This document shows positions 8,338-53,338 of a stretch of 64,000 nucleotides of DNA, in pieces (position 1 is the stretch's first letter; every line of letters starts with the position of its first letter). The notes beneath the pieces were generated by a model. The model was given only the letters and a program-made list of their open reading frames with translations. It was not told where the DNA came from and did no database searches. A program made the position numbers and the translations under genes. Origin of the DNA: Silvimonas amylolytica (GTDB lineage: Bacteria > Pseudomonadota > Gammaproteobacteria > Burkholderiales > Chitinibacteraceae); NCBI RefSeq assembly GCF_014645555.1, contig NZ_BMLY01000002.1, forward strand, positions 489,109 through 553,108, given 5' to 3'.

Positions 8338-8456
8338 AGCGATACGTCCTTTGCGATGTGGCCGGAAGAGGGGCGGGGTGAGTCATCACCTGAAAACCTG
8401 CACGCATGATGATCGATCATTGGCAGGTAGAGCCCGTGTCCGGCACGGTTGATCAG

Positions 8457-8521
8457 GTGAGCGCCGTTGAGACTCCGGGCCTGGGGCAGATGGGATTTTG
8501 CCTCGCAGCGCTCCCCGGAAG
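8457..8521 (-). ncRNA. SAH riboswitch
   Basis: Read on the minus strand, the leader of ahcY contains CCGGGGAGCGCTGCGAGG, then CCCCAGGCCCGGA and AACGGCGCTCA. These are the conserved parts of the S-adenosylhomocysteine riboswitch in the correct order: the P1 strand CCGGG pairs with CCCGG and the downstream GGCGCTC closes the pseudoknot with GAGCGC. It begins within a few bases of the predicted transcription start and is 120 bases before the GTG start of ahcY. SAH riboswitches are known as ON switches for SAH hydrolase genes. Confidence 0.95.
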
Positions 8522-9472: not shown

Positions 9473-9478
9473 CGCGCC

Positions 9479-9703
9479 GTCATGCAGGAGAGCGTCTTAC
9501 CCGCAACGGGAAGGCCGCCGAAGGCGCAAGCGCACCCGCAATCGCTCAGGCAAAAGGACTGCGTGACCTTTGAGTGCCAATGTCGGTTCCAACCCGGTCA
9601 TTTCGCACGAAAAACTCTGGAGAGCTGTGCCATACAGGGCACACACCGAAGGGGCTAAGGGCTGGCGATGCCAGCCTGAAAATCTCAGGTGCCGGGACAG
9701 AGG
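9479..9703 (+). ncRNA. Tandem glycine riboswitch
   Basis: Two glycine aptamers lie in tandem upstream of gcvT. The first, about 9479-9567, has CAGGAGAGCG, CGCCGAAGGCGCAAGC, ATCGCTCAGGCAAAAGGACTG and a P1 stem GTCATGCAG/CTGCGTGAC. The second, about 9613-9703, has CTCTGGAGAGC, ACACCGAAGGGGCTAA, AATCTCAGGTGCCGGGACAGAG. These are the conserved core sequences in the right order. The linker between aptamers is about 45 bases, longer than usual. A palindrome CAAGTACG-C-CGTACTTG at 9717-9733, between the second aptamer and the gcvT start, may belong to the expression platform. Glycine riboswitches usually switch on glycine cleavage genes. Confidence 0.95.
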
Positions 9704-9757
9704 GGTGTGGTACCCACAAGTACGCCGTACTTGTAATCCACGCACCTGGAATGTCCG

Positions 9758-27874: not shown

Positions 27875-27942
27875 AACGTCCACAGGCATCATCAGCCCCG
27901 CAGCGACGGCCGGGCGGTTCAGGGAGGCATGCCATCTCCCGA
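27875..27942 (-). ncRNA. Fluoride riboswitch (crcB motif)
   Basis: On the minus strand the leader reads TCGGGAGATGGCATGCCTCC, then CTGAACCGCC and GGGGCTGATGATGCCTGTGGA. These are the conserved parts of the crcB motif: the GGAGATGGCAT stem with its CCTCC partner, the ACCGCC pseudoknot strand and the GGCTGATGATGCCT end. The predicted transcription start falls at its 5' edge. Fluoride riboswitches turn on fluoride exporters such as CrcB and CLC-F. Confidence 0.95.
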
Positions 27943-27949
27943 GTGGCCA

Positions 27950-37143: not shown

Positions 37144-38142
37144 TTACCCATAAAAATGCACCCCCACATAAACCGCAAACGCCAGATACAACCCCCCCAC
37201 CATCACGAGCCGGCTGCAATCCACCTGCCCGCGGCGGAAGATGTTCCACAAAAACACAATCGCTGCAGCGGTGATCAAGCCAGACACCAGCAGCGGTGCA
37301 TCAAACATCCACGGTGTGAAGAAGATACCCAGCGCGCTGGGAATGGTCGCCTGGATCATCATGGCGCCAGAGATATTGGCCAGTGCCAGCCGCTCTTTAC
37401 CCTGGCGCACCCAGATCAGTGTGTTCATGATTTCCGGCAGCTCGGTCGCTACCGGGCTGAGTAACAACGCAACAATATGCGGGGCGATGCCGAACGCAAT
37501 GCCGATGGTCTCCAGCTGTGCCACAAAGGTGTGTGAAGCTACGGCGATGACACCCAGCGCAACCAGCGACTGAAACGCGGCCCAGCCCATGGTGGCGTCG
37601 TTCGGGCGGAACTTCAGCGGTTCCAGTTCTTCTTCTTCCGGTGCGGTGTCGGCCGCGTTGATTTCACGCCAGACATAAAGCGCATAGGCGGCCAGGAACA
37701 ACACGCCAAGCCACGGTTTGATGGCAAAGGCAACAAGACCAAGGGCCACTTTGAAAACGAAGATGGACAAGAACGACAACTGGTCACCGGCCAGCCGTTG
37801 GCTATCAACCTGCACGGTGCGATCAGGCCTGCCCAGGCGCCGGCGATTCAGCCACAGAGCGCCGCCAACCACGGCGTAGGCGACGGTCGCCAGCACCAGC
37901 GGACCACCCATGGCCGCCCCGACACCAATATCTTTGGCTTTGTCGGTCTGACCGAAAACCACGGCGGTAAAGGTGACGGCGCTTTCAGGCAAGGCAGTGC
38001 CAAACGCGGCCAGTACGGTACCGACGGCGGTGGCGCCCAGTTTCATGTGGCGGCCGCACCATTCAATGCCGTTCACGAAGTATTCACAGGCCAGGTAAAT
38101 GGCGAGCGCGGATGCAAAAAACAAGATGATTGTGAGGAGCAT
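37144..38142 (-). CDS. Sodium/calcium exchanger family protein
   Basis: A 332-residue CaCA-superfamily membrane transporter. It has two homologous halves, each with a conserved alpha repeat: GTVLAAFGTALPESAVTFTA in the first and LLLSPVATELPEIMNTLIWV in the second, with the acidic residues that bind the cation. About ten membrane helices are predicted. The ATG at 38142 starts the first helix (MLLTIILFFASALAIYLACE); the upstream extension is not hydrophobic and begins with TTG. Whether calcium or another cation moves is not visible. It is divergent from the Card1-like gene. Confidence 0.88.
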   Translation of the reverse strand: MLLTIILFFASALAIYLACEYFVNGIEWCGRHMKLGATAVGTVLAAFGTALPESAVTFTAVVFGQTDKAKDIGVGAAMGGPLVLATVAYAVVGGALWLNRRRLGRPDRTVQVDSQRLAGDQLSFLSIFVFKVALGLVAFAIKPWLGVLFLAAYALYVWREINAADTAPEEEELEPLKFRPNDATMGWAAFQSLVALGVIAVASHTFVAQLETIGIAFGIAPHIVALLLSPVATELPEIMNTLIWVRQGKERLALANISGAMMIQATIPSALGIFFTPWMFDAPLLVSGLITAAAIVFLWNIFRRGQVDCSRLVMVGGLYLAFAVYVGVHFYG

Positions 38143-38177
38143 GAGAGCACGCACGGCCGGGCAAGCAAGATATACCA

Positions 38178-38402
38178 ATGGCGCAACGATACGGCTTGCC
38201 CGGCGTGGCAAAGCGCATCGTGGCCAAAGGTCTCGCCGGGCAACCGGGTGGAGAACCCGGTACTGATCACGCCATGAAGCAGGGCTTCAAGTTTGTTGAC
38301 GTGACCTCTTCTCTGACAGGCATCAGCCTGCAGGAAGATAGCTACTCCCCAATGACAACGGAGCGGATTGTACATCGTTTGTCGCATCAAGCAACCGTGT
38401 AA
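38178..38402 (+). CDS. Possible small protein upstream of the Card1-like gene
   Basis: A 74-residue open frame in the 326-base gap between the divergent exchanger and nuclease genes. Codon choice is like that of real genes in this window, but there is no clear Shine-Dalgarno and no recognisable domain. It contains GC-rich inverted repeats (CCGGGTGGAGAACCCGG) that may instead be regulatory. If real it would be cotranscribed with the nuclease gene 66 bases downstream. I rate it as more likely not a gene than a gene. Confidence 0.25.
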   Translation: MAQRYGLPGVAKRIVAKGLAGQPGGEPGTDHAMKQGFKFVDVTSSLTGISLQEDSYSPMTTERIVHRLSHQATV

Positions 38403-38468
38403 GCGACATTGGGCATTTTGCGATATATGCTTTGGCAGCCCCGCAGCCTGCCAAGGATACCCAGCCCG

Positions 38469-39599
38469 ATGCACCGCCATCTGATCGCATTTGCTGACGC
38501 ACCTGAACCTGATCTGATCACCCCCGCGCTGGATCAGCGTTTCAAGATCCGCAATGTCACGCTGCTGGCAGATGCCACGCATATCGAGCGTGCCAACTAC
38601 ATGGCCAGTGTTTGCCGGGAGGCCAATCTGCATACGTCAGTGATGCCGATCCCGCATGGCTGGCACCCGGAGCCGATCCGCGTACGCCTCAAGGAAATCA
38701 TCGCCGGTGGCGAGTTGCCGTACGTGTTCAACTTGTCTGGTGCCAATCCGATCCACAGCGCTATTGCGCATGAAGTAGCGCTGGGGCATCAGGTGCCGGC
38801 GTTTGTGGTGAACCCGTCCAGCGACCAGATTCACTGGCTGGCATATCCACCGCATGATTTGCCCAGCGATGATGGCAACGTGGAAGACCGGCTGACACTG
38901 GAAAGCTACTTTGCGGTGTATGGCATCGGTATTGTTTCGTGTAGCCGTCGTTTGCATCGGCCCAAGGCACAGATGGATGCCGCGGCCGATGTGCTGGCGC
39001 ATTTGTCGGTGGATCACCCGGAGTTGATCAACAAGCTCAATGGTGTGTGTTCACTTTTGACCAGTGAACACGAAACCCGCCTGCCGATTCCCAATGAACC
39101 AGCGCTGATCTCTGCATTGCGCGCTACCGGTCTGTGCCAGATCCTGCCGGATTTACGTCTGAAGCTGGATCAGTTTGACGCGCGCCAGTTTCTGGGAGGC
39201 GGCTGGTTTGAGTTGTGGTTGTTGCGGCAGGTCGAAACGCTGGTGGGTGATTTACCCATTCAGGACGCCGCAGCCAGTGTGCGGGTGAGCTTGCCCAACG
39301 GGGTGTCCAATGAATTCGATGTGGTCATTTTGTGCAACAACCACCTCTATGTGATTGAAGCCAAAACCATCAATGCCGGTATGGCCGACAAGGGCGTGGG
39401 GCTGACCACGCTGTTCAAGCTCGACAGCGTGTCTGGCCTGGGCGGTATGCGGGCAGAAGCCATGCTGGCCAGTTTGTCCTTGCCCACGCTGCGCGAAGCC
39501 AGTCGCGCCCAGGCCCAGGAGATCGCCATTGTGGCGGGCGATGAGCTCACTAGTGTGCAGGCACGCCTGCGCGAGTGGCTGGCCCAGACCGACTCCTGA
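38469..39599 (+). CDS. Card1-like protein: CARF-like domain plus PD-(D/E)XK nuclease (DUF1887)
   Basis: A 376-residue protein with the layout of the DUF1887/Card1 family (VC1899-like; Can2 is related). Card1 is a nuclease switched on by cyclic tetra-adenylate made by type III CRISPR complexes. The N-terminal part (about 1-140) is an alpha/beta CARF-like domain, with FNLSGANPIHSAIAHEVALG at residues 87-106 in the place of the family ligand loop (usually N-T-GG-TK). The Lys is lost here. A linker with a winged-helix-like part follows. The C-terminal nuclease has GGWFELWLL, NEFDVVILCNN near residue 281 and VIEAKT near 297, so the E...D...E-x-K metal site is complete. No cas gene or CRISPR array is in the window. 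The ATG at 38469 is chosen as the start of family-like sequence. Confidence 0.82.
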   Translation: MHRHLIAFADAPEPDLITPALDQRFKIRNVTLLADATHIERANYMASVCREANLHTSVMPIPHGWHPEPIRVRLKEIIAGGELPYVFNLSGANPIHSAIAHEVALGHQVPAFVVNPSSDQIHWLAYPPHDLPSDDGNVEDRLTLESYFAVYGIGIVSCSRRLHRPKAQMDAAADVLAHLSVDHPELINKLNGVCSLLTSEHETRLPIPNEPALISALRATGLCQILPDLRLKLDQFDARQFLGGGWFELWLLRQVETLVGDLPIQDAAASVRVSLPNGVSNEFDVVILCNNHLYVIEAKTINAGMADKGVGLTTLFKLDSVSGLGGMRAEAMLASLSLPTLREASRAQAQEIAIVAGDELTSVQARLREWLAQTDS

Positions 39600-39617: not shown

Positions 39618-40514
39618 CTAATGCGGCAAGGCAGGATCAATAAAGGGCAGATAGCGTAAAGAGAAAAACAGGCTATCGCCCTGACACGCCGCGCGTTGTT
39701 GCAACATCGTGCGTACTTCTTCGGCGGGCCGGCGTTCGGCCTGGAAGGCTTCATCGGTGCCGGTCTGGCGGAAAATCTCATACACCACGCCCTGCGCCGA
39801 CGGCCTGGCGCAGTCAGCCAGCGCGTTCAGATACGCGCCGCGCTCTGCGACGTTGAGTTTGCCGGTGCCCGCCCCATCCTGAATCCACAGTTTCACACCG
39901 CTTTGCAATGTCACCTGACCGACCATCTCGGCGTATTGCTGTGGCGCCATATGCCCGGCAAAGAAACTGCTGGCGTACACCGGTTTGTCGGCCTGCTGCC
40001 GGATCAGTTTGCTGGCGCGGATCAGCCAGCCATTCAGGCTGGTGCGCGCTTCGTTGTCACGCCAACGCACATCGTCAATTTCCAGGGGTAAATACCAGCC
40101 ACTGATCGCATCCGTCCCCAGGCGCTTCACCCAGTACTGCGCCAGCGCGGCATCGGCGTAGGCGTGGCTGCGAAAATAGGTGTCCAGAATGCGCACCGGC
40201 TGTTGCTGGCGGATGAAAAAGTCTGGATCGCCGTTGAGACCAATTACCAGGTGCAACCCTGCCGCACGGGCGTTGACCATGCGTGCGGCCAGCCAGTCTT
40301 TGTCTTGCGGTGCGGCGAAAGCGTCGCCATTTTGGGTCCACTGGATCACCAGCGTATCAAATCCCGCACCGCGCACACTGCTGAAGATGCCAGGCCAGGA
40401 GGCGTCCGGAACGCCTTGGTCGCGTGTTTGCGGCTGGTAGAACAAAGCGGTCATGGCGTTGGCCGTGGCGGACAGGCAGAGCAAAGCCAGCAGGGCGAGT
40501 CGGGCGGCGCGCAT
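39618..40514 (-). CDS. ybcH: YbcH-like DUF4434 protein of the nfr operon
   Basis: A 298-residue secreted protein with a signal peptide (LALLALLCLSATANA) and a TIM-barrel-like DUF4434 domain. FYQPQTRDQGVPDASWPGIF begins the barrel; DTLVIQWTQNG and GWYLPLEIDDVRW include acidic residues at strand ends, as in glycoside hydrolases. In E. coli ybcH also follows nfrA, and its function is not established. Here the ATG shares its A with the nfrA stop (TAATG) and GGAGG lies inside the end of nfrA, so translation is coupled. A role in trimming or handling the NfrB glycan in the periplasm is an inference from context and fold. Confidence 0.85.
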   Translation of the reverse strand: MRAARLALLALLCLSATANAMTALFYQPQTRDQGVPDASWPGIFSSVRGAGFDTLVIQWTQNGDAFAAPQDKDWLAARMVNARAAGLHLVIGLNGDPDFFIRQQQPVRILDTYFRSHAYADAALAQYWVKRLGTDAISGWYLPLEIDDVRWRDNEARTSLNGWLIRASKLIRQQADKPVYASSFFAGHMAPQQYAEMVGQVTLQSGVKLWIQDGAGTGKLNVAERGAYLNALADCARPSAQGVVYEIFRQTGTDEAFQAERRPAEEVRTMLQQRAACQGDSLFFSLRYLPFIDPALPH

Positions 40515-43500
40515 TACCACAGTCCTCCAAAGGTCAGAAACACGGTGTTGTCTTCGTTCAGATAGGTGTTGAACGCATGCTGGAATTCCAGCCCCACGCT
40601 GATCTTGCTGGGGTAGGCGTCGTAGCGTTTTTCGCCGTACCAGTAGTTCCAGCGCACGCCCAGGCCTGCGCGGACGTCGCGGCTGTAGGCGTGCTGATCG
40701 ATCAGGTTGTACTGGAAGTGCGTATACGGTTCGATGGTCTGACCGCGCTCGAGTTTCTGGTGGTAACTCACGCGGTAGTCAGCGGTGGCCGCGGTACGTT
40801 CCTGATGCAGGTAATACGCGGCATCCAGATACAGGTTCTGCGCCACCCAGCCGGTTCCGGATTCATGCCAGTCATCGCTGAACTTGCCGTCATTCAAGAG
40901 TGACGCGCTGGCGCGGAACATGAAGTCAGAAACGGTATCGCGGCTGCGATCAATCGGCGTCTGGTATTCGGCAGCCAGAAAAAACGTCCAGTCGCGGAAG
41001 GGTTTCCAGCGCAGGCCAGTGCCCAGCATGGGGGAGTAGATGGGCAGCGCCTGATAGCTGTCGTTGTCATTGCCACTGCCTGCAAAGACGCGGGCGTAAG
41101 CTTCCAGTGTTTTGCCATCGCGAATGGCCGGGTCGCCCAGGCGGTAATCGGCCTCGACCTGAGAGTAGCTGCGGTAGGCATTGCCTGGTTCGGGCGCATT
41201 GGCAATAGAGCCCGCGTTGGTGCCGGCAAACGCGCCGGCAGAAAAGCTCCAGCGCCGGCCCAGGTCTTCGTGCAGGCGCTTGAAACCAAATTCTTCGTCC
41301 CGTTCGTGATCACTGCGCTCGCCGTACGGAACGGTTTCATACCAATCAATCACATCACGCGCATAGGCGCGGGCGGCCGGGTTGTCTGCCATGCGCTGAC
41401 TGCTATAGACCAGCTGCTGGGTAATGCCGATATCGTCCGGATAGGTCTCGCGGGCATTTTCCAGTGCCGCGCGAGAATGAGGGGCGTCGCCGGCAAACCA
41501 GTAGGCATAACCCAGGGAGGCTTGCAGATCAGAGTCATCCGGCGTCAGGACTTCGGCTTTTTTCAGTGAGGCGACTGCTTCGGTGTATTGCTTGTCGGCA
41601 CTTTGCAGGGTGGCGAGCCGGACGTAATAACGTGCGTCTTCGCGGGAGGCGATCGCGCGTTCCAGCGCGGCACGTTCCTCTGCCGGGGTGGTGGCATCCT
41701 GTGCGCGCAACCACCAGTATTCGTCATCACGGACCGCACCGCGCTCTTCGTAGCTGTCCAGCCAGGTTCTGGCGGCTGGTTTGTCGCCTGCGGCCAGCGC
41801 GGTGGTCGCCGCGGAGATCATTTCAGCTGGCATCAGGTCATCCATATTGATGGCTTGCCATGCCTGCAATGCAGTCGGGTAGTCCTGGCTGGCGAACGCG
41901 GCATACGCCAGTGCGCGGCGCGCGTAGCCGTCGTCTTCCCGCTTCAACGCTTGCTCATAGCTGTACTGTGCCAGGCCGGGCTGATCAGGCATGTAGCAAT
42001 TGCCCAGACGCATCCAGTCGTCGTGGCTGTAGCCCGGTGAGAGATCGCCCAGCAAGTCATGCACCTTGCTGCAATCCTGCAGCCCGGCGAACACTGCCGC
42101 CTGGTGGCCACGCTGACCCAGTGTGGACAACGGGTTGGCCAGCACGGCGCGCTCTGCGTCGGTCAGCAGGCCGGGGTTATCGTTGACCAGGCCGGCCAGC
42201 CGTTGCAGCAAAATGCGGCGGCGGGTGGGTTTGGCCTCTTCAAACGGGTAGAACTGCAGCAAGAGATGCAGTGCTTGCTGCTGGCCACCTGCTGCAATCA
42301 ACTGGTAACTGAGCGAATCAAGCAAAGCGGAATCGCCGCCGCTGCGGTCGATCAACGCCGTGGCTTGTTTGCCGGCCGTGTCGAGCTGATTGGCTTTCAG
42401 GCTCAGCGTAAAACGTTCTTGCAACATCTCCGTTGCCGGGAGTTGTTCCAGCAGACGTTGCGCGCCGTTGTCATCTCCCTGCGCCAGCAAGAGCGGCACC
42501 AGGATTTTGGCTTGATCTTGCCGATTGACGGAAAATACCGGCGTGTAGTCTGCAAAAAGCCGGTTGTTGTCGGCAGATGCCTGCTGGAGCAGGTTCATCC
42601 ATTGTCGTTCCACTTCGGGGCTCTGGAACTTCGGGCGCTTATCGCGTTGATAGCGCGCCAGTGTAGCGGTATCACCGCGTTGTGCCAGCGCCTGCGCATA
42701 GGCAAGTTGATCGCGCGGGCTTGTCGTACCGGCCTGACTCAGCAGCTTTTCGGCCTCGCCTAACCGACCTTGGGCCAGCAGCAGGTTGATCCACTGGCTA
42801 CGCTCGTTTACGGTCAACTGGCTGTTGGTATTGAGGATGGCCAGTTGATTGAGCGCGCGATCGGTATCACGCAGGTAGATGGCCCGTTGTACTAGCGCAT
42901 GTCGCAGTGCAATGCCTTCGGGCGTGGCTGCAAAATCGGCGTCATCCAGTTCTTTTTGCGCGTCAGCAAGCTTGCCCAGTCGCAGGGCTGCATGGCCGGC
43001 AATGGCCTTGCAGATCGGCGTCGGGGCGCTCTGGCAATCGCCCCCTGCAGGTGGCGGGACCATGTTGGGCGAGGTGGATTCAGCGTTGCTGACCACCGCA
43101 GGCTGTGGTTCGGACTGGCGCGGGGTGGTGTCGGCAGTGGCCTGAGCCGATGCGGCGTCTTCAGGTGGCGCGGCCATGGTTTGCGTACCTTGCACAACGG
43201 CCAGTGCGGACACAATCCGCACATCGCGCGGATTGGCTTTTTGAGCTTTGTCCAGGACGAGCATGGCTTGATCCGGCTGGCCGTTACGCTGATAGGCTTC
43301 GGCCAGATAAAGCGCGAGCGTAGCGTTGTTCGGTGCCAGTTTGAGGGCTGCGGCAAACTCGGTGATGGCGCCGTTGGCGTCGCCGCGTTGCTGCAGACTG
43401 AATGCCTTTTGCAAGTGCGGGTAAATGATAAAACGGCGATAACTGCTGACCTCGCTGCCCAGATCCACCTGTTGTGCCGCATCAGTAGCGGCCAGCACCG

Positions 43501-43555
43501 GGGTGGCGAGGGCAAGGGCGAGCAGGGCGGGTAACACGCGGAGTCTGGTTTTCAT
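40514..43555 (-). CDS. nfrA: NfrA-like outer-membrane TPR/beta-barrel exporter
   Basis: NfrA is the outer-membrane receptor for phage N4 in E. coli and the export partner of NfrB. This 1013-residue protein has a signal peptide (LPALLALALATPVLA), a long helical TPR part (for example ALKLAPNNATLALYLAEAYQ and SDLQASLGYAYWFAGDAPHS) to about residue 760, and a C-terminal beta barrel with alternating aromatic strands. It ends in TFGGLW, with a terminal aromatic residue typical of outer-membrane barrels. This is the same design as PgaA and BcsC in other exopolysaccharide systems. Its start overlaps the nfrB stop by four bases (ATGA) and its stop overlaps ybcH. A low-complexity linker rich in Ala, Pro and Gln is at residues 130-165. 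Confidence 0.93.
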   Translation of the reverse strand: MKTRLRVLPALLALALATPVLAATDAAQQVDLGSEVSSYRRFIIYPHLQKAFSLQQRGDANGAITEFAAALKLAPNNATLALYLAEAYQRNGQPDQAMLVLDKAQKANPRDVRIVSALAVVQGTQTMAAPPEDAASAQATADTTPRQSEPQPAVVSNAESTSPNMVPPPAGGDCQSAPTPICKAIAGHAALRLGKLADAQKELDDADFAATPEGIALRHALVQRAIYLRDTDRALNQLAILNTNSQLTVNERSQWINLLLAQGRLGEAEKLLSQAGTTSPRDQLAYAQALAQRGDTATLARYQRDKRPKFQSPEVERQWMNLLQQASADNNRLFADYTPVFSVNRQDQAKILVPLLLAQGDDNGAQRLLEQLPATEMLQERFTLSLKANQLDTAGKQATALIDRSGGDSALLDSLSYQLIAAGGQQQALHLLLQFYPFEEAKPTRRRILLQRLAGLVNDNPGLLTDAERAVLANPLSTLGQRGHQAAVFAGLQDCSKVHDLLGDLSPGYSHDDWMRLGNCYMPDQPGLAQYSYEQALKREDDGYARRALAYAAFASQDYPTALQAWQAINMDDLMPAEMISAATTALAAGDKPAARTWLDSYEERGAVRDDEYWWLRAQDATTPAEERAALERAIASREDARYYVRLATLQSADKQYTEAVASLKKAEVLTPDDSDLQASLGYAYWFAGDAPHSRAALENARETYPDDIGITQQLVYSSQRMADNPAARAYARDVIDWYETVPYGERSDHERDEEFGFKRLHEDLGRRWSFSAGAFAGTNAGSIANAPEPGNAYRSYSQVEADYRLGDPAIRDGKTLEAYARVFAGSGNDNDSYQALPIYSPMLGTGLRWKPFRDWTFFLAAEYQTPIDRSRDTVSDFMFRASASLLNDGKFSDDWHESGTGWVAQNLYLDAAYYLHQERTAATADYRVSYHQKLERGQTIEPYTHFQYNLIDQHAYSRDVRAGLGVRWNYWYGEKRYDAYPSKISVGLEFQHAFNTYLNEDNTVFLTFGGLW

Positions 43556-45789
43556 GCGGCAGTGGAACGGATCTGTTTGAGACTGGATGCCTCCACGCCG
43601 GCTTCAAGCAACAGCGCTGGCATGGTGGATTGCAATTCGTGCTGCAAATGGAGTGCCTGCTGCAGGATTTCGGCACTGATCACGCCCTGCCCGACCAGAA
43701 ACTCGCCCAAACTCTCGGACGTGCGTTCATGTCGTAGCAGCAAGGCTTTTAGTGCAGCTGCATCGATATGCCCCAACGACATCAGGATTTCCGCAAACAG
43801 CACTTGCTGGTGCACATAGCGCTGCCAAAGCTGGCTGGCGGGTTCGGCCGTCATCAAGCCGGCGCGCAACGTGGCATCCAGCAAACCGCGTGGATCTTCC
43901 TGGGTGTAGGGGACGTACCAGTGCCGCAGGCCGACCGTCACTTCACCCCGCAGCGCAATCACGTAGTTCACCGGGCGAGCCAGCTTGCGCGACAGCGCGG
44001 CCAATGAGACCGGGTCAATGTCTGACTCACTGGCGACCACCAGCAATTTGTTTTCTTCCCGGACCGGCAAAATGGCGTAGTGCAAAGCCACACTGGCCGG
44101 GATCAATTTGATCAAGGCGGGTTTGAGTTGCCAGGCGTCGACGGATTCGACCTTCACATGACTTTGCGTTGCCACAGCGTGGGCCAGTTGTTCCGCGCTG
44201 ATCCAGCTTTTATGGACCAGCCAACTACCCAGTTTCAAACCCTCGGCGCGGTGGTGAGCCAGCGCAGTGGCCAGCTGTGTTTCGGTGATTGCACCTTGTT
44301 CAATAAGGATGCTGCCCAGCGGTCGGCGAGCTCGGTTTTCGCCACCCACACTAGGGAAATCATGCGTGGTTTTGTCCCAGGCCACCCGGCGCGGATCGCC
44401 TTGGGCAATGATCTGGCTGAGCGCACGCCAGTTGGCAAGAAAATTGATGACGTTGCCCCAGAACAGCCGCGGGATCGCCATCAGACCCTGGCCTATACCG
44501 TAATAGGCGGTGACAAAGATGATCCGCTGCAGCATGCGGTTGGCCATCAGGAAAAAGTTGATCCATAGCAGCAGCACCAGCCAGTGATCGCCCTCAAAGA
44601 TAGAAAGGAAGCGATAGGCATCCGGCCAGCAATGCTGGTAGAGCCATAATGCAGAAAGCTGGATCAGGATCAGCGAAGCGATAAAGCTCACGAAGTTGCT
44701 GATGGCGCCTTTGCGGTCGCGCCACAAAAAATAGTTAAGCGTCATGTTGCGTGTCCAGCCATGGGTCTTGAACCCCTGGTAGACAATGCCGATGATCCAG
44801 CGCGACTTTTGCCGTACCGCCGTCTGGAGCGTATCCGGAAAATACTCGCGGACGCAGATCACCGTGGAATCGCGCGCGGTTTGACCCAGCAAGCGGCGGG
44901 CGATGCCGGGTTTTTTGTCATCCCGCAAAACCGGGAAGCGCACGAAGACTTCTTCCATCCCTTTGGCTTTGAGACGAAAACCGATGTCATAGTCTTCCGT
45001 CAGGCTTTGTACATCAAAGGCAATACCATCCCCTTCGGCCAGCAGGGCGATCACCGCGCGGCGGCTGAAACATGTACCAACACCGGCGCTGGGCACCTGG
45101 CCAGCCACTGCCTCACGCACCGGGACGTCCTTGCCATGCAGTTCGGCAAATTCATCCAGATAAGACAGACTCGTGAAATTGGTCCAGTGCCGCTCAAACG
45201 GGTAGACCGGAATCTGGATCAGGTCTTTGCGCCCGACCAGGTAGTTGAAGAGGCGCAATTCCATGTCGGAAATCACATCTTCGGCATCGTGCAAGATGAA
45301 CCCGGCAAACTCGAAACTGGCGCGCCGCTCAAACTGCAAAATGGCATCAAGCACGTTATTCAGGCAGTCAGCTTTGCTGGTGGGGCCGGGGCGGGCGCAC
45401 ACCACTTTATGCACATTGGGGAACCGTGCGCAGACCTCATCCACATCGCGCTGGGTATCCGGGTCATTGGGATATGTGCCGACAAAGATGTGGTAGTTCT
45501 CGTAGTCGAGCGTGGTCGCGGCCAGTTCGGCCATCTGGCCGATCACCCCTGTCTCGTGCCATGCCGGCACCATGATTGCCAGCGGCTTTTCATCGGGCTC
45601 GTAGAGCGCGGTGTAATCCAGTCGCCGGTGTTCCTGGTAAATGGTGACCCAGCGCCAGAAGCGGCGGCACCAGTACACAACGTCAATGAACAAATCGTCG
45701 ATACCGCTGACCAGCATCATCACGGCCACGGTAATGGCGATCAGTTTGAGCCCATACAGATACGTGGAAAAAATATCCAGCAATGACAT
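43552..45789 (-). CDS. nfrB: NfrB-like glycosyltransferase with MshEN domains
   Basis: NfrB is an inner-membrane glycosyltransferase 2 that makes the N4 receptor glycan. The 745-residue protein has N-terminal helices (LYGLKLIAITVAVMMLVSGI), a catalytic domain with HDAED, TEDYD and QKSRW (the D, DxD-like, TED and QxxRW motifs of processive synthases) and further helices near 360-450. The C-terminal third has pairs of 24-residue motifs of MshEN type: LGSILIEQGAITETQLATAL and LGSWLVHKSWISAEQLAHAV near 485-540, and SLGEFLVGQGVISAEILQQAL near 710. MshEN domains bind c-di-GMP, so synthesis is probably c-di-GMP dependent. wecB lies 15 bases upstream and may supply UDP-ManNAc. Confidence 0.94.
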   Translation of the reverse strand: MSLLDIFSTYLYGLKLIAITVAVMMLVSGIDDLFIDVVYWCRRFWRWVTIYQEHRRLDYTALYEPDEKPLAIMVPAWHETGVIGQMAELAATTLDYENYHIFVGTYPNDPDTQRDVDEVCARFPNVHKVVCARPGPTSKADCLNNVLDAILQFERRASFEFAGFILHDAEDVISDMELRLFNYLVGRKDLIQIPVYPFERHWTNFTSLSYLDEFAELHGKDVPVREAVAGQVPSAGVGTCFSRRAVIALLAEGDGIAFDVQSLTEDYDIGFRLKAKGMEEVFVRFPVLRDDKKPGIARRLLGQTARDSTVICVREYFPDTLQTAVRQKSRWIIGIVYQGFKTHGWTRNMTLNYFLWRDRKGAISNFVSFIASLILIQLSALWLYQHCWPDAYRFLSIFEGDHWLVLLLWINFFLMANRMLQRIIFVTAYYGIGQGLMAIPRLFWGNVINFLANWRALSQIIAQGDPRRVAWDKTTHDFPSVGGENRARRPLGSILIEQGAITETQLATALAHHRAEGLKLGSWLVHKSWISAEQLAHAVATQSHVKVESVDAWQLKPALIKLIPASVALHYAILPVREENKLLVVASESDIDPVSLAALSRKLARPVNYVIALRGEVTVGLRHWYVPYTQEDPRGLLDATLRAGLMTAEPASQLWQRYVHQQVLFAEILMSLGHIDAAALKALLLRHERTSESLGEFLVGQGVISAEILQQALHLQHELQSTMPALLLEAGVEASSLKQIRSTAA

Positions 45790-45804
45790 GGTTTATCCCA
45801 AAGC

Positions 45805-46899
45805 TCAGATCAGGTCGCGTTCCAGAGTCTTCATGATGCGTTCGCAGGCCTTGCCATCACCAAACGGATTGCCTGCGCGGGCCATGGCTTGCCAGGTGGC
45901 GTGGTTCTGCCAGAGCTCCTCGACGGTATCGACCACCTTGTCGCGTTGGGTGCCCACCAGCCGTGCACATCCGGCTTCCAGGGCTTCCGGGCGCTCGGTT
46001 TCTTCGCGCAACACCAGAAGTGGCACGCCAAAGGTGGGCGCTTCTTCTTGCAAACCGCCTGAGTCAGTCAGCACTAACCAGGCGTCGGCCAGCGCTTGTT
46101 GCATCTCAAGGTAATCGAGCGGGTTGACCAGCGTGACGTTGGGGACATGATCCAGGATAGCGTGCACGGGCTGTTGCACGACCGGGTTCAAGTGAACCGG
46201 AAACAAGATCTGGAGCTCGGGGTGGCGTTGGGCAATGGTCGCGATGGCATAGCAGACCTCGTTGATGTCGTGGCCCCAGTTTTCACGGCGGTGCGTGGTG
46301 ACCAGTAAATGCCCGCGGCCCTCAATCTTGCGGCCTATTCCCCGGTTGGCGATGACCCAGTTCTGCGCATCGACCACGGTGTTGCCGGTCAGCGTGATGA
46401 GTTTGTCGGCAATATTCTCTTTGAGTAATGCCTCACGGGCGCGCTCGGTTGGCGGGAAATGAAACCGTGCCAGGCGGCCGATCATTTGCCGCAGGATTTC
46501 CTCCGGGAACGGTCGCTCCGGGTTATAGGTGCGCAGGCCAGCTTCAACGTGAGCGACCGGGACGTGGTGATAAAACGCGGTCAATGCGCCCAGGAAGGCG
46601 CTTTCCGTATCACCCTGCACCACGGCCAGCGACCAGGGCTCTTGCATGACTTGTTCAAGCTGGGCCCGACAACCGATGGAGAACTCGGCCAGCGTACTGC
46701 CGCGCCGCGCGAGGCTGATATCCGGCTTGATATCAAAGCAGGCCAGGATCTGGTCCGCCATATCGCCATGCTGACCAGTATGCAACCACTGCACCCGTGT
46801 ATCCGGGCGTGCTTTGAGCGCGTGGTAGAGCGGGGCCAGCTTGATGATTTCGGGTCGGGTGCCGGAAATAAGCAGCAGGTTTCGAGCGGAGGTTCCCAT
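45805..46899 (-). CDS. wecB: UDP-GlcNAc 2-epimerase
   Basis: WecB converts UDP-GlcNAc to UDP-ManNAc. The 364-residue protein has the usual markers: SGTRPEIIKLAPLYHALKAR at the start, TGQHGDMADQIL, VQGDTESAFLGALTAFYHHV, HVEAGLRTYN and TLTGNTVVDA, then LTDSGGLQEEAPTFGVPLLV in the nucleotide-binding C-terminal part. In E. coli wecB (nfrC) is needed for N4 adsorption but lies far from nfrAB in the enterobacterial common antigen locus. Here it is the first gene of the nfr operon, so its product is probably used by NfrB. AGGA at good spacing lies inside a 12-bp palindrome just before the ATG. Confidence 0.95.
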   Translation of the reverse strand: MGTSARNLLLISGTRPEIIKLAPLYHALKARPDTRVQWLHTGQHGDMADQILACFDIKPDISLARRGSTLAEFSIGCRAQLEQVMQEPWSLAVVQGDTESAFLGALTAFYHHVPVAHVEAGLRTYNPERPFPEEILRQMIGRLARFHFPPTERAREALLKENIADKLITLTGNTVVDAQNWVIANRGIGRKIEGRGHLLVTTHRRENWGHDINEVCYAIATIAQRHPELQILFPVHLNPVVQQPVHAILDHVPNVTLVNPLDYLEMQQALADAWLVLTDSGGLQEEAPTFGVPLLVLREETERPEALEAGCARLVGTQRDKVVDTVEELWQNHATWQAMARAGNPFGDGKACERIMKTLERDLI

Positions 46900-47221
46900 A
46901 GGAATATTCCTAAAAATTACCTGCCCATATGAAACCGCTAATCCGTCAGTGAACCTAGTTAAATAGGTGATATTTGACCTGGCAACTATTGTCTGTACAT
47001 TTTCGAGTATTAGTAGACGGTTCTATTGCGCGGCGATTCCGGCCTGGCAGGCGAAGAGAGGAGCGGTGCGCGCGACGAATTGACTGTTTCATAAAATCTG
47101 CCGTCATCTCGAATACAGCACGCGCGCGTCATTTACAAACTAGATGTCAGATTGCAAAGCAGCAAGGCGTGGCGTTGTATCAAAAAGGGGGTGGTGCAAA
47201 GCGGGCAGCACTGATACATAT
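46900..47221 (-). promoter_or_regulatory. Upstream region of the wecB-nfr operon
   Basis: This 322-base gap holds no convincing gene. Next to the wecB start is the perfect palindrome AGGAATATTCCT (46900-46911), which contains the Shine-Dalgarno. Further upstream, on the minus strand, TTGCCA is followed after 17 bases by TTAACT, in a region with the inverted repeat ACCTA-TTTAAC-TAGGT. This is a possible promoter with an operator, but the -10 match is poor. Base composition is more AT-rich near wecB than in the rest of the gap. Confidence 0.35.
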
Positions 47222-48739: not shown

Positions 48740-49300
48740 TCAGAACAACTCCAGTTCGCCCGCACTGGTATCTTCTTCCACCGTGACCGGGGCGACAAAA
48801 TCCACCTGTGCGGAGTGATCCGGGCAAAAGCACAGCGTGAGGCCGAACTGCATGTCATTGTTGACGGATACCGCCAAAGACACGACCTCTGCCGGTTTGA
48901 TACCGGAGAGGTAATCGCGGCAATTGCGTTCCAGCACAAAGGGCGTCGACATCCCCACGTGGCGAAAGCCGGTACAGAGGTTGCGATTGACCGCGCCACA
49001 GATCATGTTGACCAGTTCTGAGCAGGCATCGTGCAACGCTTGCCCATCCAGTTGAAGAGACGAACTTCGGCCAAGACGAGCCATATGCGCGCAACTGGCG
49101 TCATCAGTACCGAAATCAAACACTGCCACAATTCGAAACAGATAAGACGAGATATTCAGTACAACAAGGTGGCCCGCACCTGCAGTCGTGATATTGGCGC
49201 GTTCAATGCGGACATCGTCCTCTGGCCGGCTGCGGCTGTGCTCGACAAGGGCGTTTTCAAAGAGCTGGCTGATCGCCGCGATGGCACCGGGAGTGAACAT
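48740..49300 (-). CDS. CheX/CheC-like phosphatase family protein
   Basis: A 186-residue cytoplasmic protein. DACSELVNMICGAVNRNL fits the active-site helix of the CheC/CheX/FliY family (E-x2-N-x3-G-x2-N/R), whose members remove phosphate from CheY. ALVEHSRSRPEDDVRIERAN and the following beta strands fit the CheX fold. Its start lies five bases after the stop of the mini-MCP gene, and the CheY-like gene is in the same operon. So it is the probable phosphatase of this relay. The C-terminal tail is acidic (VEEDTSAGELELF). Confidence 0.75.
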   Translation of the reverse strand: MFTPGAIAAISQLFENALVEHSRSRPEDDVRIERANITTAGAGHLVVLNISSYLFRIVAVFDFGTDDASCAHMARLGRSSSLQLDGQALHDACSELVNMICGAVNRNLCTGFRHVGMSTPFVLERNCRDYLSGIKPAEVVSLAVSVNNDMQFGLTLCFCPDHSAQVDFVAPVTVEEDTSAGELELF

Positions 49301-49305
49301 GGTGC

Positions 49306-50082
49306 TTAACCCGCCGTTGCCATAGCCGCGTCGATCTTCGCTGCGGCGGCGCGCAGCCCGAATACGGCGTTGCGAATCATATTGCCGCTGGCCTGCATGT
49401 CCTGAAAGGTGGTGGTCGTGATCAGGTCGTTCTTGTGCAGGTTTTGCTGGTATTGGCGAGCGACATCAGCACTGGTCAGCGCCAGATTGCGCACGCCATC
49501 GGCCACGACCGCAAAGCCGCGGCCGTGCTCGCCCGCACGGGCCGCTTCAATGGCCGCGTTCAGGGCCAGCATGACTACGTTTTTGACGATGCGGGCGAAT
49601 TCTTCGTTCTGGCTTTTGAGTTCGCGGTTGTTGACCAGGATCACCTGTAACTCGTCGTGCCAGCGTTCCACCACCTGCACAATGCCCAGCAAAGATTCAA
49701 TGTCCTGGCGCAGTAGTGCGTGTTCTTCGGCCAGCGTCGCATTCAGTTGTGCAGCACGCTCAGTCTGCTGCTGGTGCAGCTGGTCAATGGCACGCTGGTG
49801 AGATGCGGTTTCACGATCCATCCAGTCACGCTGGTTGGCGCTGTGCTCGGCAGCAGTCTCATCAAGTGCCCGTTGCAGCTCGTCTACTTGTTGTTGCCAG
49901 TGGCGCTGCTGCCGGGCGACATCGTCGGCGCTGGGGCGGCTTGCCAGTTCGGCAATCCGGCGATCCTGTGCGCGTTGTAGCAGATCAAAGTCTTGCTGGC
50001 GCTGGCGGGCGCGCCAACCCATGACGCCCGCGCCCATGATGGCGCCCACTATCCAGAAGACCGCGTAAAACCAGATTTCCAT
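49306..50082 (-). CDS. Minimal methyl-accepting chemotaxis-like protein
   Basis: A 258-residue protein with one N-terminal membrane helix ([20 protein letters not shown]), a coiled coil of about 120 residues and an MCP signalling hairpin. The tip is well conserved: [20 protein letters not shown] then [13 protein letters not shown]. There is no periplasmic sensor domain and no HAMP domain, and the second half of the coiled coil is short. The usual C-terminal pentapeptide for CheR/CheB is absent. It lies between the CheY-like and CheX-like genes, so it may organise this relay as a scaffold rather than act as a normal receptor. Confidence 0.85.
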
Positions 50083-50102
50083 GTGTATCCCAGGCCCTGC
50101 GC

Positions 50103-50468
50103 TTAGCTTGCCAGCTTCTTGAAGGTGGCGACGACAGAGGCGCCATTGAATGGCTTGACGATCCAGCCCTTGATACCGGCAGCCTTGCCGCGCTCTTTCA
50201 TGACCGGGCTGTTTTCCGTGGTCAGCATGATGATGTTCACCGCGCTGTTGTTCAGTTCACCACGGATTTTCTCGGCCATGGTCAGGCCATCCATATTGGG
50301 CATGTTGACGTCGCTGACTACCAGTTTGATGCCGCTGTCGGCGCGCAGCTTGTCCAGGCCATCTTTACCATCCACGGCGACGGTGACGGTCATGCCGCTG
50401 GCTTTGAGAAACTCGCTGACTTCGGTGCGGACAGTGCTCGAATCGTCCACGATCAATACTTGTGCCAT
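50103..50468 (-). CDS. CheY-like single-domain response regulator
   Basis: A 121-residue receiver domain with no output domain. The acidic pocket is Asp8-Asp9 (VLIVDDSS), the phosphate acceptor is Asp53 in [12 protein letters not shown], and the switch Thr and Lys are in [10 protein letters not shown] and WIVKPFNG. The ATG at 50468 is preceded by GGAG; the longer frame upstream is the end of the kinase gene. It should be phosphorylated by the upstream CheA-like kinase, 46 bases away, and dephosphorylated by the CheX-like protein. The target is unknown; no flagellar gene is near. Confidence 0.92.
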
Positions 50469-50514
50469 GTAAAAACTCCAGATGATCAGTAGTAAAAAAG
50501 GGTAAGGGCGCGGG

Positions 50515-52887
50515 TCAGACGGGGACCGATTCGCGCTCGGGCGGGCGTGACAACGGGGCGTCGATCTGCACCACAAAGCTCTCAGGCAAGGTCACCACGG
50601 TGGCAAACTGGCGGAATGGGGCGCCTTCGCTTTGGTCGGTAAAGCGAATGGCAATATCGCCGTGTTCGCGCTTGATGAAATCGCGCACGGCATCCATGCC
50701 CACGCCACGACCCGAAATTTCGGTCACGGTTTGCGCAGTCGAGAAACCTGGCAGGAAGATCAACCGGGCGGTGTCTTCATCGCTCAGCATGGTATCGGGG
50801 GCGATCAACCCCTTGCGGGCGGCGATCTCTTTGATCTTGCCCAGTGCCAGGCCACGACCGTCGTCTTCCAGCGTGATGTGCAGCTTGCCAGCCTGCACAG
50901 TAACGCCGACCGCCAGTGTCCCGGTCGCCGGTTTGCCCAGCGCCAGGCGGGTATCAGGGCCTTCCAGACCATGGTCGAGCGCATTGCGCATCAAGTGCAT
51001 GAACACATTCTTCAACAGATAACCCGCATGGGCTGGCATGACGTAGCCCTCGTCGGCGTAAACCACCAGCGGTGCAGCTTTTTCCAGTTCGTGCGCCAGG
51101 TCCGGGAGAGAGTCGGTCACGCTCGACAGCATGTGCGGCAGCGTTTCTGTACCCAGCAAACGCAGGGTCTTGCGCACGGCGTCGCGAGCGGCAATCAATT
51201 CATGCAGGTTATTGGTGTTGACGTGTTCCAGGCGGTGCAGGGTGTCCTGAATCTGGGTCTTGTCGACCATCACGTAGCGGTCCTGCGCTGGCGCGGCCTG
51301 GCCGGAGCCCTTGCGGCCCAGGCTGACTTCATTAATGCGGGCGTAGTGCGTTACCGCCGTGCGCACTGCAGCCAGTTCCACCAGCAGTTGTTGTTGATCC
51401 CACACAATGGCTGGTTGCGGTTGGCGCAGGGCATCGTAGCTTTGCTCGACCTCGTGCACCACGCTGGTCAGGTGGTTCAAACCATAAGTACGGGCGTTAC
51501 CTTTAATGGTGTGCATATTGCGGAACAACTGATCAACCACCGCAATCTGGCGCTCTGCACTTTCCCGGATCAGGATCTCGTTATCGTCGACAAAACGCAG
51601 CGTGCCGATGATGAAGTCGTGGAACTTGTCCTGGCGTACGGCGAGTACTTCGCCAATCATTTCCAGTTCGCGGCGCTGGTCGCTGGCCTCCAGTGCCAGC
51701 TTGCGCAGTTCTGTCACGTCGCGCACGCACAGCATCATGCGGGCGGTCATGCCGTGTTCGTCGGTGATGGGTGACCAGTTCAGATCCAGCACCTTCACCC
51801 GGCCATCAGCCATGGTCTTTTCGACTTCGCCCACCATCAGGTGCTGGTTGAACTCGAAGTTCATCACGTCTTCGTCGATACAAGCGCCCCACACGGCGTC
51901 GACCTGGGCGAGCGCATCGGCCGACAGGTTGGTATTACTGAAAACGACCTCCATGACATCGCGGCCGGCAATGTGTTCGGTCTCAAGGATGGTCGCCAGA
52001 TAAGCCGAATATTCCGGGTGGATGATGCTGCCACTTTGCACCGTCAGAATGCCTTGAGGCATGTGTTGCAGCATGGACTGGATGTCGGCGGTCTTTTGGC
52101 GCAGCAGTACAGAACTGGTCTGGATTTGCTCGATCATGACGTTGAACGCCACCATGGAGTGGCCAATCTCATCCTTGCGATCTGCCGGCAGTCGCTGGCT
52201 GAAATCCTGGCTGGCTGCAATATCCGACATCATCGTCTGCATCTGGCCGATGGGGCGGGCAATCTGGCGATACAACAAGATGCCGATCGCGGTCAGGATG
52301 ATGACCATCGCCAATGTCACACCACTGATGGTGCTGACGGTGCGCGCCAGGTTATGGTTCAACGCGCTGATCGCGGCATCTTTGCTGCGGTTTTTCTCAA
52401 CCCGCAGCGTTTGCACAATCTGTTCCAGTTCGCCTTGATACTGCGCCACGCTGGCGAACAGGGTCGCGGCAGCGATTTCTTGCTGGCCGGATTGCTTGAA
52501 ATTCCGGGTGTCTTCAATGGCCGAGAAGTAGTTGGCCATACTTTGCCGGGCTTGTTGCACCAGCTTTGTCTGCGTTTCCGAACTGGCTTCGCGCTGCTGC
52601 TGTTGCAAGCTTTGGTTCAATGCAGACTGCTGTTGTTTGAGTACCTCTGCGGCTTGTGCGGCAGTGTTGTCATCGGGCGCGAACACCAAAGACATTGTGG
52701 TTTGCTGGACATCCTTGAGTCGCGCCATCAAATCGGCAGAGGCCAGCGTGCTGGGCACGACGCCCTCGGTGACAAGGCGGACCTCCTTCGCGTTAGCGCG
52801 GGATTGCAGCACTGCATAACCGCCAATGGCGGCAATGGCCGCAAAAGTCAGCATGACAAGCAGGATAATGCGTTGCCGGATGGTCAT
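50515..52887 (-). CDS. Hybrid sensor: MCP-like N-terminus with CheA-type HPt and kinase
   Basis: A 790-residue membrane kinase. Two membrane helices (IILLVMLTFAAIAAIGGYAV near 10-30 and GVTLAMVIILTAIGILLY near 190) flank a four-helix-bundle periplasmic sensor. Then come HAMP (RQIARPIGQMQTMMSDIAAS), a PAS-like domain with QSGSIIHPEYSAYLATILE, and an HPt domain with the phospho-acceptor His near 459 in NMHTIKGNARTYGL. The ATPase domain is of CheA type: HLMRNALDHGLEGPD, EDDGRGLALGKI and GRGVGMDAVRDF. It has no C-terminal CheW-like domain, so it cannot join a normal chemoreceptor array. The ATG at 52887 follows AGGTGAG. Confidence 0.9.
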   Translation of the reverse strand: MTIRQRIILLVMLTFAAIAAIGGYAVLQSRANAKEVRLVTEGVVPSTLASADLMARLKDVQQTTMSLVFAPDDNTAAQAAEVLKQQQSALNQSLQQQQREASSETQTKLVQQARQSMANYFSAIEDTRNFKQSGQQEIAAATLFASVAQYQGELEQIVQTLRVEKNRSKDAAISALNHNLARTVSTISGVTLAMVIILTAIGILLYRQIARPIGQMQTMMSDIAASQDFSQRLPADRKDEIGHSMVAFNVMIEQIQTSSVLLRQKTADIQSMLQHMPQGILTVQSGSIIHPEYSAYLATILETEHIAGRDVMEVVFSNTNLSADALAQVDAVWGACIDEDVMNFEFNQHLMVGEVEKTMADGRVKVLDLNWSPITDEHGMTARMMLCVRDVTELRKLALEASDQRRELEMIGEVLAVRQDKFHDFIIGTLRFVDDNEILIRESAERQIAVVDQLFRNMHTIKGNARTYGLNHLTSVVHEVEQSYDALRQPQPAIVWDQQQLLVELAAVRTAVTHYARINEVSLGRKGSGQAAPAQDRYVMVDKTQIQDTLHRLEHVNTNNLHELIAARDAVRKTLRLLGTETLPHMLSSVTDSLPDLAHELEKAAPLVVYADEGYVMPAHAGYLLKNVFMHLMRNALDHGLEGPDTRLALGKPATGTLAVGVTVQAGKLHITLEDDGRGLALGKIKEIAARKGLIAPDTMLSDEDTARLIFLPGFSTAQTVTEISGRGVGMDAVRDFIKREHGDIAIRFTDQSEGAPFRQFATVVTLPESFVVQIDAPLSRPPERESVPV

Positions 52888-53338
52888 CTTACTCACCTTT
52901 TTGGTGTTTGCTTACAAACGATAGGTTCTGCAAACGCGCGCCTTGCATGCCATTCATCCGGATGTCCGGCTAGGTTAGGTGCCGGTTTGATCAGAAAATC
53001 TGTTTGTTTATGCGGGAAAAATCAGCGTGGTCTGCAGTGTGTTCGGTCCAGCCTGTCAGAGGACAGGCGGTAAACAGGCCTGCATATTAGTAGATGGTTA
53101 TGAATGAATTATTGAGAAGTGCTTTCTTGTATTTATGATAATGCTGACAAGTTTTGTTTTATTTCGGCGGGAGGGCGCGGTGGGAGCGCGCAGAACGCAT
53201 CAGGAAAGGTCGTGAGCAATTCGGCCAGCGCGAGCCATGCTGCGGCGCGCGGCCGCATATCGCCCAACGCTTGCCGGGCTGAACTCATCAGTAAGAAAAT
53301 GGCCTTAATACAATCACTTGTATCTTCTTGTCGCAGCC
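52888..53338. other. 451-base gap between the kinase and the SprA-related gene
   Basis: No firm gene here. A hairpin GCCTGTC-AGAG-GACAGGC lies at 53051-53068 without T tract. On the minus strand a 51-residue frame ends at 53133 (starting MSSARQALGDMRPRAAAW); its codon use is good but it has no ribosome-binding site or known domain. On the plus strand there is a promoter-like sequence at 53112-53139. The two readings compete. Confidence 0.4.
53112..53139 (+). promoter_or_regulatory. Possible promoter of the SprA-related gene
   Basis: TTGAGA at 53112-53117 and TATGAT at 53134-53139 are 16 bases apart in AT-rich DNA. Transcription from here would give a leader of about 190 bases before the SprA-related start. 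Confidence 0.35.

Follow-up and report, generated by a model that had tools for sequence, protein, structure and literature searches.

A wecB-nfrB-nfrA-ybcH operon of Silvimonas amylolytica as a probable complete N4-glycan-receptor type exopolysaccharide system

The closest described counterpart of the locus considered here is the Nfr system of Escherichia coli, which makes the N4 glycan receptor (NGR); WecB, NfrB and NfrA are needed for N4 infection and NfrB binds cyclic di-GMP (c-di-GMP) (PMC8669469; PMC8669472; both are cited throughout for the parts of their text that were available). In a survey of 1,841 NfrB homologues, organisms without a WecB from another pathway were reported to have wecB directly beside nfrB, which was taken as support for UDP-ManNAc as the substrate of NfrB (PMC8669469). 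In Achromobacter, nfrA, nfrB and wecB are clustered, and WecB is the only component of the enterobacterial common antigen (ECA) pathway that is needed for N4 (PMC8669472). We describe here a related locus from a 64,000-nucleotide stretch of the Silvimonas amylolytica genome (the window), in which four minus-strand genes, wecB, nfrB, nfrA and ybcH, are packed into 7.3 kb (Table 1) and probably constitute a complete NGR-type exopolysaccharide system in one operon. A first-pass annotation of this DNA presented the linkage of wecB to nfrB as new, an argument that repeats what is in print, because both papers report wecB beside nfrB (PMC8669469; PMC8669472). What is new here is a WecB that appears dedicated to the system, with a linkage arisen more than once, a near-obligate YbcH with an enzymatic assignment, and a limit on the claim of c-di-GMP control.

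In E. coli K-12, ybcH, nfrA and nfrB lie together without wecB, and UDP-ManNAc comes from the WecB of the ECA operon, whereas the operon of the window begins with a dedicated wecB, which is of a different lineage. The two loci are alike in their nfrB-nfrA-ybcH order, in the active-site and main MshEN residues of NfrB and in the identity of their proteins (69% for NfrB, 44% for YbcH and 40% for NfrA). The local diguanylate cyclase of the E. coli system is DgcJ; the present genome has 40 GGDEF matches, none of them in the window. Pseudomonas soli (PMC8669469) and Achromobacter xylosoxidans (PMC8669472) resemble the window in having wecB with nfrB; in the available text, the published clusters of some species also contain diguanylate cyclase, BcsB-like or acetyltransferase genes, whereas the window has the four genes only. 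The packing described in the first-pass annotation was confirmed in each detail: wecB and nfrB are separated by 15 bases (45790-45804), nfrB and nfrA overlap by 4 bases (43552-43555), and the nfrA stop and the ybcH ATG overlap by one base (TAATG). Such tight packing suggests that the four genes share a single transcript. The ybcH open reading frame is listed as 39618-40520 from a GTG, and its likely start is an ATG two codons downstream, at 40514. WecB matches TIGR00236, and NfrA has the tetratricopeptide repeats (TPRs) and the NfrA_C pore that characterize the Nfr/NGR system; the whole-length scores of NfrA against PRK09782 (752 bits, cut-off 1223) and of YbcH against PRK09936 (295 bits, cut-off 344) are under the respective cut-offs. 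The genome is close to Silvimonas terrae, and the NfrB of the window shares 94% identity with the NfrB of locus L003.

In the system that we propose, WecB would convert UDP-GlcNAc to UDP-ManNAc, and NfrB, turned on by c-di-GMP at its MshEN domains, would polymerize ManNAc and move the chain through the inner membrane. NfrA would then convey the chain over the periplasm and the outer membrane, while YbcH, as a periplasmic glycoside hydrolase, would cut stray or over-long chain. Both the chemistry of the polymer and the catalysis by YbcH are inferred. Cutting of this kind is performed in other secretion systems by BcsZ and AlgL-type enzymes. The cellulose (Bcs) and poly-N-acetylglucosamine (PGA) systems are similar to Nfr in combining a c-di-GMP-activated glycosyltransferase family 2 (GT2) synthase, a TPR-barrel exporter and a periplasmic hydrolase (BcsZ, PgaB). 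Nfr differs from them in its MshEN c-di-GMP domain, in the predicted use of UDP-ManNAc and in its candidate hydrolase family, DUF4434.

A search of the genome (4.56 Mb, 20 contigs) with PF02350 gave one match, the wecB of the operon, which is the sole WecB found. The WecG/TagA family (PF03808) had no match in the genome, and the two nucleotide-sugar dehydrogenases score 173 and 128 bits with the UDP-ManNAc dehydrogenase model NF008286 (WecC), which has a cut-off of 459; among equivalog-type models both match UDP-glucose dehydrogenases best, again short of the cut-offs of those models. No competing user of UDP-ManNAc is apparent among the families searched, and unknown families could exist. The use of UDP-ManNAc by NfrB, which the first-pass annotation had argued from gene order, is supported by these findings, because the genome has a sole WecB, no WecG family member and no dehydrogenase over the WecC cut-off, and because the linkage seems to be of several origins.

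NfrB loci were taken from one scan of contigs representing one genome per species, with the best 80 of 94 relatives retained; gaps between genes were measured between stop-to-stop frames and are approximate, and L059 was scored as linked on a partial WecB frame (101 bits). NfrA is present in 79 of these 80 loci and a linked WecB in 41, so wecB beside nfrB is not confined to this strain; 32 of the 39 loci without a linked WecB belong to the Enterobacterales. WecB is encoded somewhere in 78 of the 80 genomes. The other two are metagenome-assembled genomes, L030 and L041; Sheuella amnicola (L028), a relative of L030, carries a WecB at another place in its genome, and the contig of L041 has 88 bases ahead of the nfrB frame. 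In 23 of the 41 linked genomes (rows counted against locus coordinates), no PF02350 match other than the linked copy exceeds the cut-off. The nfrB gene lies in two in-line frames with a break in one E. coli assembly (L026:9983-12226) and is also split in Hafnia (L009:9905-12211), and ybcH directly follows nfrB in Algicola sagamiensis (L072:9941-13107), with no nfrA detected by blastp in the fetched stretch.

The search was also run on 349 evenly sampled genomes of the order, a protein being called NfrB-like if the match covered the glycosyltransferase domain. Among the matches listed (down to about 54 bits), 15 genomes have such a protein, the lowest best match being 459 bits (G360). A count of 235 NfrB-encoding genomes by NF008411 was rejected: outside the 15 genomes, the listed matches begin at query residue 436 or later, in the MshEN part. 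WecB is in the same cluster in 13 of the 15; in G219 it lies elsewhere, and its absence from the G360 cluster is uninformative because a contig end cuts the nfrB of that genome. WecB exceeds the cut-off in 181 of the 349 genomes, in 14 of the 15 NfrB-like genomes listed versus 167 of the 334 others (Fisher p 6e-4; the genomes being related, the p values of the co-occurrence tests overstate independence and are descriptive only). The published rule, that wecB lies beside nfrB where there is no other WecB, holds in both samples, unjudgeable genomes aside.

The origins of the linkage were approached through a tree of 87 WecBs (the duplicates L115 and L130 and aligned stretches of up to 280 residues were left out), a later quick tree from which 11 distant paralogues were left out and to which four plasmid WecBs were added, and an NfrB tree of 46 of 95 rows, picked to avoid long branches. 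The linkage label changes nine times on the 87-WecB tree, with at least seven changes forced by starred branches; these numbers become eight and six if L117 is counted as linked, and five changes are forced on the quick tree. The window WecB belongs to a clade of 39, of which 38 are nfr-linked, out of 53 linked WecB rows in all. The odd row, L117, is at a contig edge and comes from a genome whose nfrB contig is broken (L074), and the WecBs of Laribacter-like L076 and L092, in which wecB lies between nfrB and nfrA, are at the base of the clade. Linked WecBs outside the clade are found in Enterobacteriaceae (L015, L017 and L055), the genomes of which also hold an ECA-like WecB, in Burkholderiales (L054, L057 and L064) and Moritella (L071), with wecB downstream on the opposite strand, and in L053, with wecB upstream on the opposite strand. 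In these trees the linked WecBs form several lineages and the linkage does not appear to be of one origin; the tree does not separate gains from losses.

The order wecB-nfrB-nfrA-DUF4434 also occurs on plasmids of two Alphaproteobacteria, Zymomonas mobilis (pZZM403) and Thalassospira marina (pCSC3H3), with NfrBs 48% and 51% identical to that of the window, respectively. The Zymomonas unit occupies L145:2907-10274 of a 32.8 kb plasmid, and L146 is its Thalassospira counterpart. Unlike the window WecB, both plasmid WecBs fall outside the clade of 39 in the quick tree, on long branches and with the odd composition of the Zymomonas sequence flagged. An unchanged gene order with a different wecB is an argument that the pairing has been selected and not just inherited. 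In the NfrB tree, the Enterobacterales are placed among lineages with a linked WecB, in a group with the Chitinibacteraceae and the Lysobacter/Rhodanobacteraceae rows (98/90); the grouping of Enterobacterales with Chitinibacteraceae alone is unstarred (90/70). Since the Enterobacterales are nested in this way, the three-gene form of E. coli would most simply be explained if the linked wecB was lost after ECA had become the supplier of UDP-ManNAc, the root being uncertain.

Other explanations of the linkage can be set against this evidence. WecB might mainly feed another ManNAc glycan, its position beside nfrB being incidental, as could be argued from the commonness of WecB, 167 of the 181 genomes over the cut-off not being NfrB-like among the matches listed; this seems improbable in a genome with neither a WecG/TagA family member nor a dehydrogenase over the WecC cut-off, and with linkage in about half of the NfrB loci, in several positions and with several WecB lineages. 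It is very improbable that the linkage is one ancient arrangement, passively inherited and of little functional meaning. Most of the linked rows do fall in a single clade, and the label changes may be losses as well as gains, but changes are forced on both WecB trees, the place of wecB varies from upstream, to the space between nfrB and nfrA, to downstream on the opposite strand, and Zymomonas and Thalassospira combine an identical gene order with WecBs from outside the clade, albeit on long branches.

YbcH (DUF4434), which the first-pass annotation proposed to be a genuine member of the pathway, is present in 71 of the 80 NfrB loci. Seven of the nine loci without it have no more than 3.5 kb of sequence left past nfrB; these misses being near contig ends, 71 of 73 assessable loci keep YbcH, the exceptions being L061 and L069. 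DUF4434 is over the cut-off in 13 of the 349 genomes of the order sample, all within the 15 NfrB-like genomes listed (Fisher p 7e-22). A sub-threshold DUF4434-like gene follows nfrA in G179, a sub-threshold match (18.8 bits) was found in G369, which is not NfrB-like, and wecB and ybcH are same-strand neighbours in G219, on a contig apart from nfrB. A plasmid collection contained 20 records with a YbcH match, 10 of E. coli and 10 others, 6 of the latter from Zymomonas; the regions opened were five of the non-E. coli ones, with one of the 6 Zymomonas records among them, and all five carry an NfrB-like gene (40-54% identity to the window NfrB). These associations support the view that YbcH is a real, near-obligate part of the Nfr pathway.

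Two alignments were used to study this protein: A1, with 49 YbcHs (that of the window and 48 of 63 listed proteins), and A2, with 14 divergent DUF4434 members; residues are numbered on a 299-residue translation starting at 40517. The model predicted from A1 (mean pLDDT 94.8, pTM 0.91) has alternating strands and helices in the order of a (beta/alpha)8 TIM barrel, in which E146 is at the end of strand 4 (140-147) and E247 at that of strand 7 (243-247); in the E. coli protein the aligned residues are E144 and E245. Only two of the 18 invariant columns of A2 are acidic, the glutamates equivalent to E146 and E247, and D148 and D149 are invariant in A1 and variable in A2. Such a placement of two glutamates, one ending strand 4 and the other strand 7, is the classic layout of retaining glycosidases of clan GH-A. 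The best match to a solved fold is PDB 4h41 (Bacteroides BT_0435, a putative alpha-L-fucosidase; E 8.6e-10, TM-scores 0.65/0.61), which a sequence profile of the 14 divergent proteins also reaches (E 9e-5). The strand-4 glutamate motif GWYxxxEI is shared with 4h41, which differs from YbcH in being only 13% identical and in having its strand-7 glutamate outside the sequence alignment. Other Foldseek matches include amylases, mannosidases and hexosaminidases, at TM-scores of about 0.5 or below. All 49 members match DUF4434, and none gives a sound match to a named glycoside hydrolase family, Cellulase GH5 coming up in only 2 of the 49 (best E 0.04). The divergent members L140, L142 and L144 have N-terminal signals that look Tat-like or lipoprotein-like by eye, which fits export. 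The term DUF4434 was not found in the literature searched, which lacked most subscription journals. No phage homologue of YbcH was detected by tblastn at E 0.1 in 50,697 phage records; a viral fold search gave 26 barrels at E 0.001 or below, many of them named glycoside hydrolases, and phage relatives of YbcH as NGR depolymerases were not retained as candidates, the barrels being 8-15% identical with no close relative among them. On our reading, YbcH is probably a periplasmic hydrolase with a role in clearing or trimming the polymer. We lean slightly towards a broader proposal, in which YbcH would be the founder of a glycoside hydrolase family not yet described and would trim the NGR polymer in a BcsZ-like role, within a four-gene unit assembled repeatedly with wecB from different lineages.

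A non-catalytic YbcH, placed in the periplasm between NfrB and NfrA as a scaffold or as an adaptor that binds the polymer, is possible but rather doubtful. Recruitment of TIM barrels to a binding role can occur, but the only two invariant acids of 14 divergent members end strands 4 and 7, which a scaffold would not need, and the nearest solved fold is that of a putative glycosidase. E. coli YbcH has been described as a putative scaffold without a signal peptidase site, and the word hydrolase is absent from the main text of that paper (PMC8669469). Several points count against a hydrolytic YbcH and against the proposed system as a whole. Deletion of ybcH in E. coli does not prevent N4 infection and suppresses a motility defect only in part (PMC8669469), a mild phenotype that is compatible with a hydrolase without proving it, and compatible with a scaffold also. 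Non-glycosidase barrels are among the Foldseek matches of YbcH, and asparagine precedes the strand-4 glutamate in none of the 49 rows of A1 and none of the 14 of A2. In clan GH-A, asparagine usually precedes the acid/base glutamate, and many TIM barrels are not glycosidases. In the order sample, G360 barely reaches the DUF4434 cut-off (30 bits against 30), no DUF4434 at all was found in the NfrB-like genome G199, and the relatedness of the genomes bears on the p values, as stated above. The 64-kb window contains no GGDEF gene, and the ManNAc nature of the polymer is predicted here and, in the available text of the E. coli papers, deduced from genetics. With these points taken into account, a complete system with a hydrolytic YbcH seems to us the probable reading.

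The GT2 motifs of NfrB are present at the E. coli positions (D168, T264-E265-D266, Q327, R330 and W331), and each motif residue is conserved in 93-95 of the 95 proteins, NfrB or NfrB-like, that were aligned. Two pairs of MshEN motifs had been read in NfrB, and this was borne out: the NCBIfam model of an MshE-related c-di-GMP-motif domain, NF053729, matches two stretches of the protein, and four half-motifs are legible by eye. Of the MshEN residues tested in E. coli, L490 and G491 correspond to L491 and G492 of the window, and V539 stands conservatively at the position of L537. Over the 95 proteins, the G491 column has 80 G, 11 D, 3 E and one gap, the D and E cases being all 14 of the Rhodanobacteraceae (L034, L035, L038, L039, L040, L043, L045-L050, L056 and L082). 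No MshEN match was found in the NfrB-like proteins of G084 (L083, 482 residues; another genus of the window's family) and G412 (L096). Of the MshEN changes made in E. coli, G491L caused the most profound plating defect, and the authors expect more than one change to be needed to abolish binding (PMC8669469). With 40 GGDEF matches in the genome, c-di-GMP signalling is available. Since the MshEN residues are kept in the window NfrB and the G491 column is acidic in the Rhodanobacteraceae, c-di-GMP control is predicted here; it is probably weakened or changed in the Rhodanobacteraceae and probably missing from NfrB-like proteins without an MshEN match. The first-pass claim that such control is likely conserved outside enterics thus holds for the residues of this NfrB and not for these other proteins. 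It is unlikely that the MshEN domain of the window NfrB is a relic and the enzyme not c-di-GMP-controlled: the valine at the L537 position, the proteins that lack the first-motif glycine or any MshEN match, and a window free of GGDEF genes would agree with it, but L491 and G492 are kept, NF053729 matches twice and the genome has 40 GGDEF matches.

An OmpA-like gene lies upstream of the operon, and a terminator-like hairpin lies between it and wecB; such hairpins are not enriched in the window (10 versus 8.2 expected from shuffles). A conserved upstream element, recognized by alignment with the nearest relatives, is common to the two nearest (L003 and L095) and is not present in L004 or L093; its pattern, derived from the same sequences, has one match in the window and none in 100 shuffles. 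A FliA-type promoter 5' of wecB, as for E. coli nfrB, was not retained, the best partial match in the window to the generally known FliA consensus (8 of 12 positions) being unconvincing, and a sigma-70 promoter scan found 3 matches versus 3.0 expected in shuffles. No riboswitch upstream of the operon was found at gathering thresholds. At the other end, a CARF nuclease gene is convergent with ybcH and ends 18 bases from its end, and a manganese riboswitch lies at the start of a gene (37144-38211) that matched calcium/sodium antiporter models below the cut-off and possibly encodes a manganese exporter. Four co-directional genes near the nfr operon, with weak or partial matches to signalling proteins, possibly form a chemosensory-type unit.

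Table 1. Features of the wecB-nfrB-nfrA-ybcH operon and its surroundings in the window
Feature	Position	Strand	Description
wecB (nfrC)	45805-46899	minus	364 aa; non-hydrolysing UDP-GlcNAc 2-epimerase, UDP-ManNAc source; TIGR00236 414 bits (cut-off 210)
nfrB	43552-45789	minus	745 aa; inner-membrane GT2 glycosyltransferase, C-terminal MshEN domains; NF008411 1221 bits (cut-off 1170)
nfrA	40514-43555	minus	1013 aa; TPRs and outer-membrane beta-barrel export pore; NfrA_C PF13283 154 bits (cut-off 25)
ybcH	39618-40514	minus	DUF4434 (PF14488) exported protein, predicted retaining glycoside hydrolase; DUF4434 119 bits (cut-off 30)
Conserved upstream element	46981-47018	minus	Candidate promoter or regulator site
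Terminator-like hairpin	47251-47224	minus	Between OmpA-like gene and wecB
CARF nuclease gene	38409-39599	plus	CARF-PD-(D/E)XK nuclease, type III CRISPR accessory type; Card1_endonuc (Pfam) 73 bits, PADLOC CARF4 216 bits
Manganese riboswitch	38145-38362	minus	yybP-ykoY, 61.8 bits
Possible manganese exporter gene	37144-38211		Calcium/sodium antiporter models below cut-off
SAH riboswitch	8452-8520	minus	
Tandem glycine riboswitch	9475-9710	plus	
Fluoride riboswitch	27876-27948	minus	
Possible chemosensory-type unit	48740-52896	minus	Four genes; CheX, chemoreceptor signalling domain, CheY, CheA

Broad-range coliphages use the NGR as a receptor, and the sugar of this receptor is deduced from genetics in the available text of the published papers. 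The sole recognized maker and the sole recognized user of UDP-ManNAc appear to lie in one operon in S. amylolytica, which would make this a clean genome for testing that chemistry. With the assignment proposed for YbcH, an unknown gene comes within reach of a pair of point mutations and a single enzyme assay; if the assignment is true, YbcH could serve as a reagent for removing the N4 receptor.

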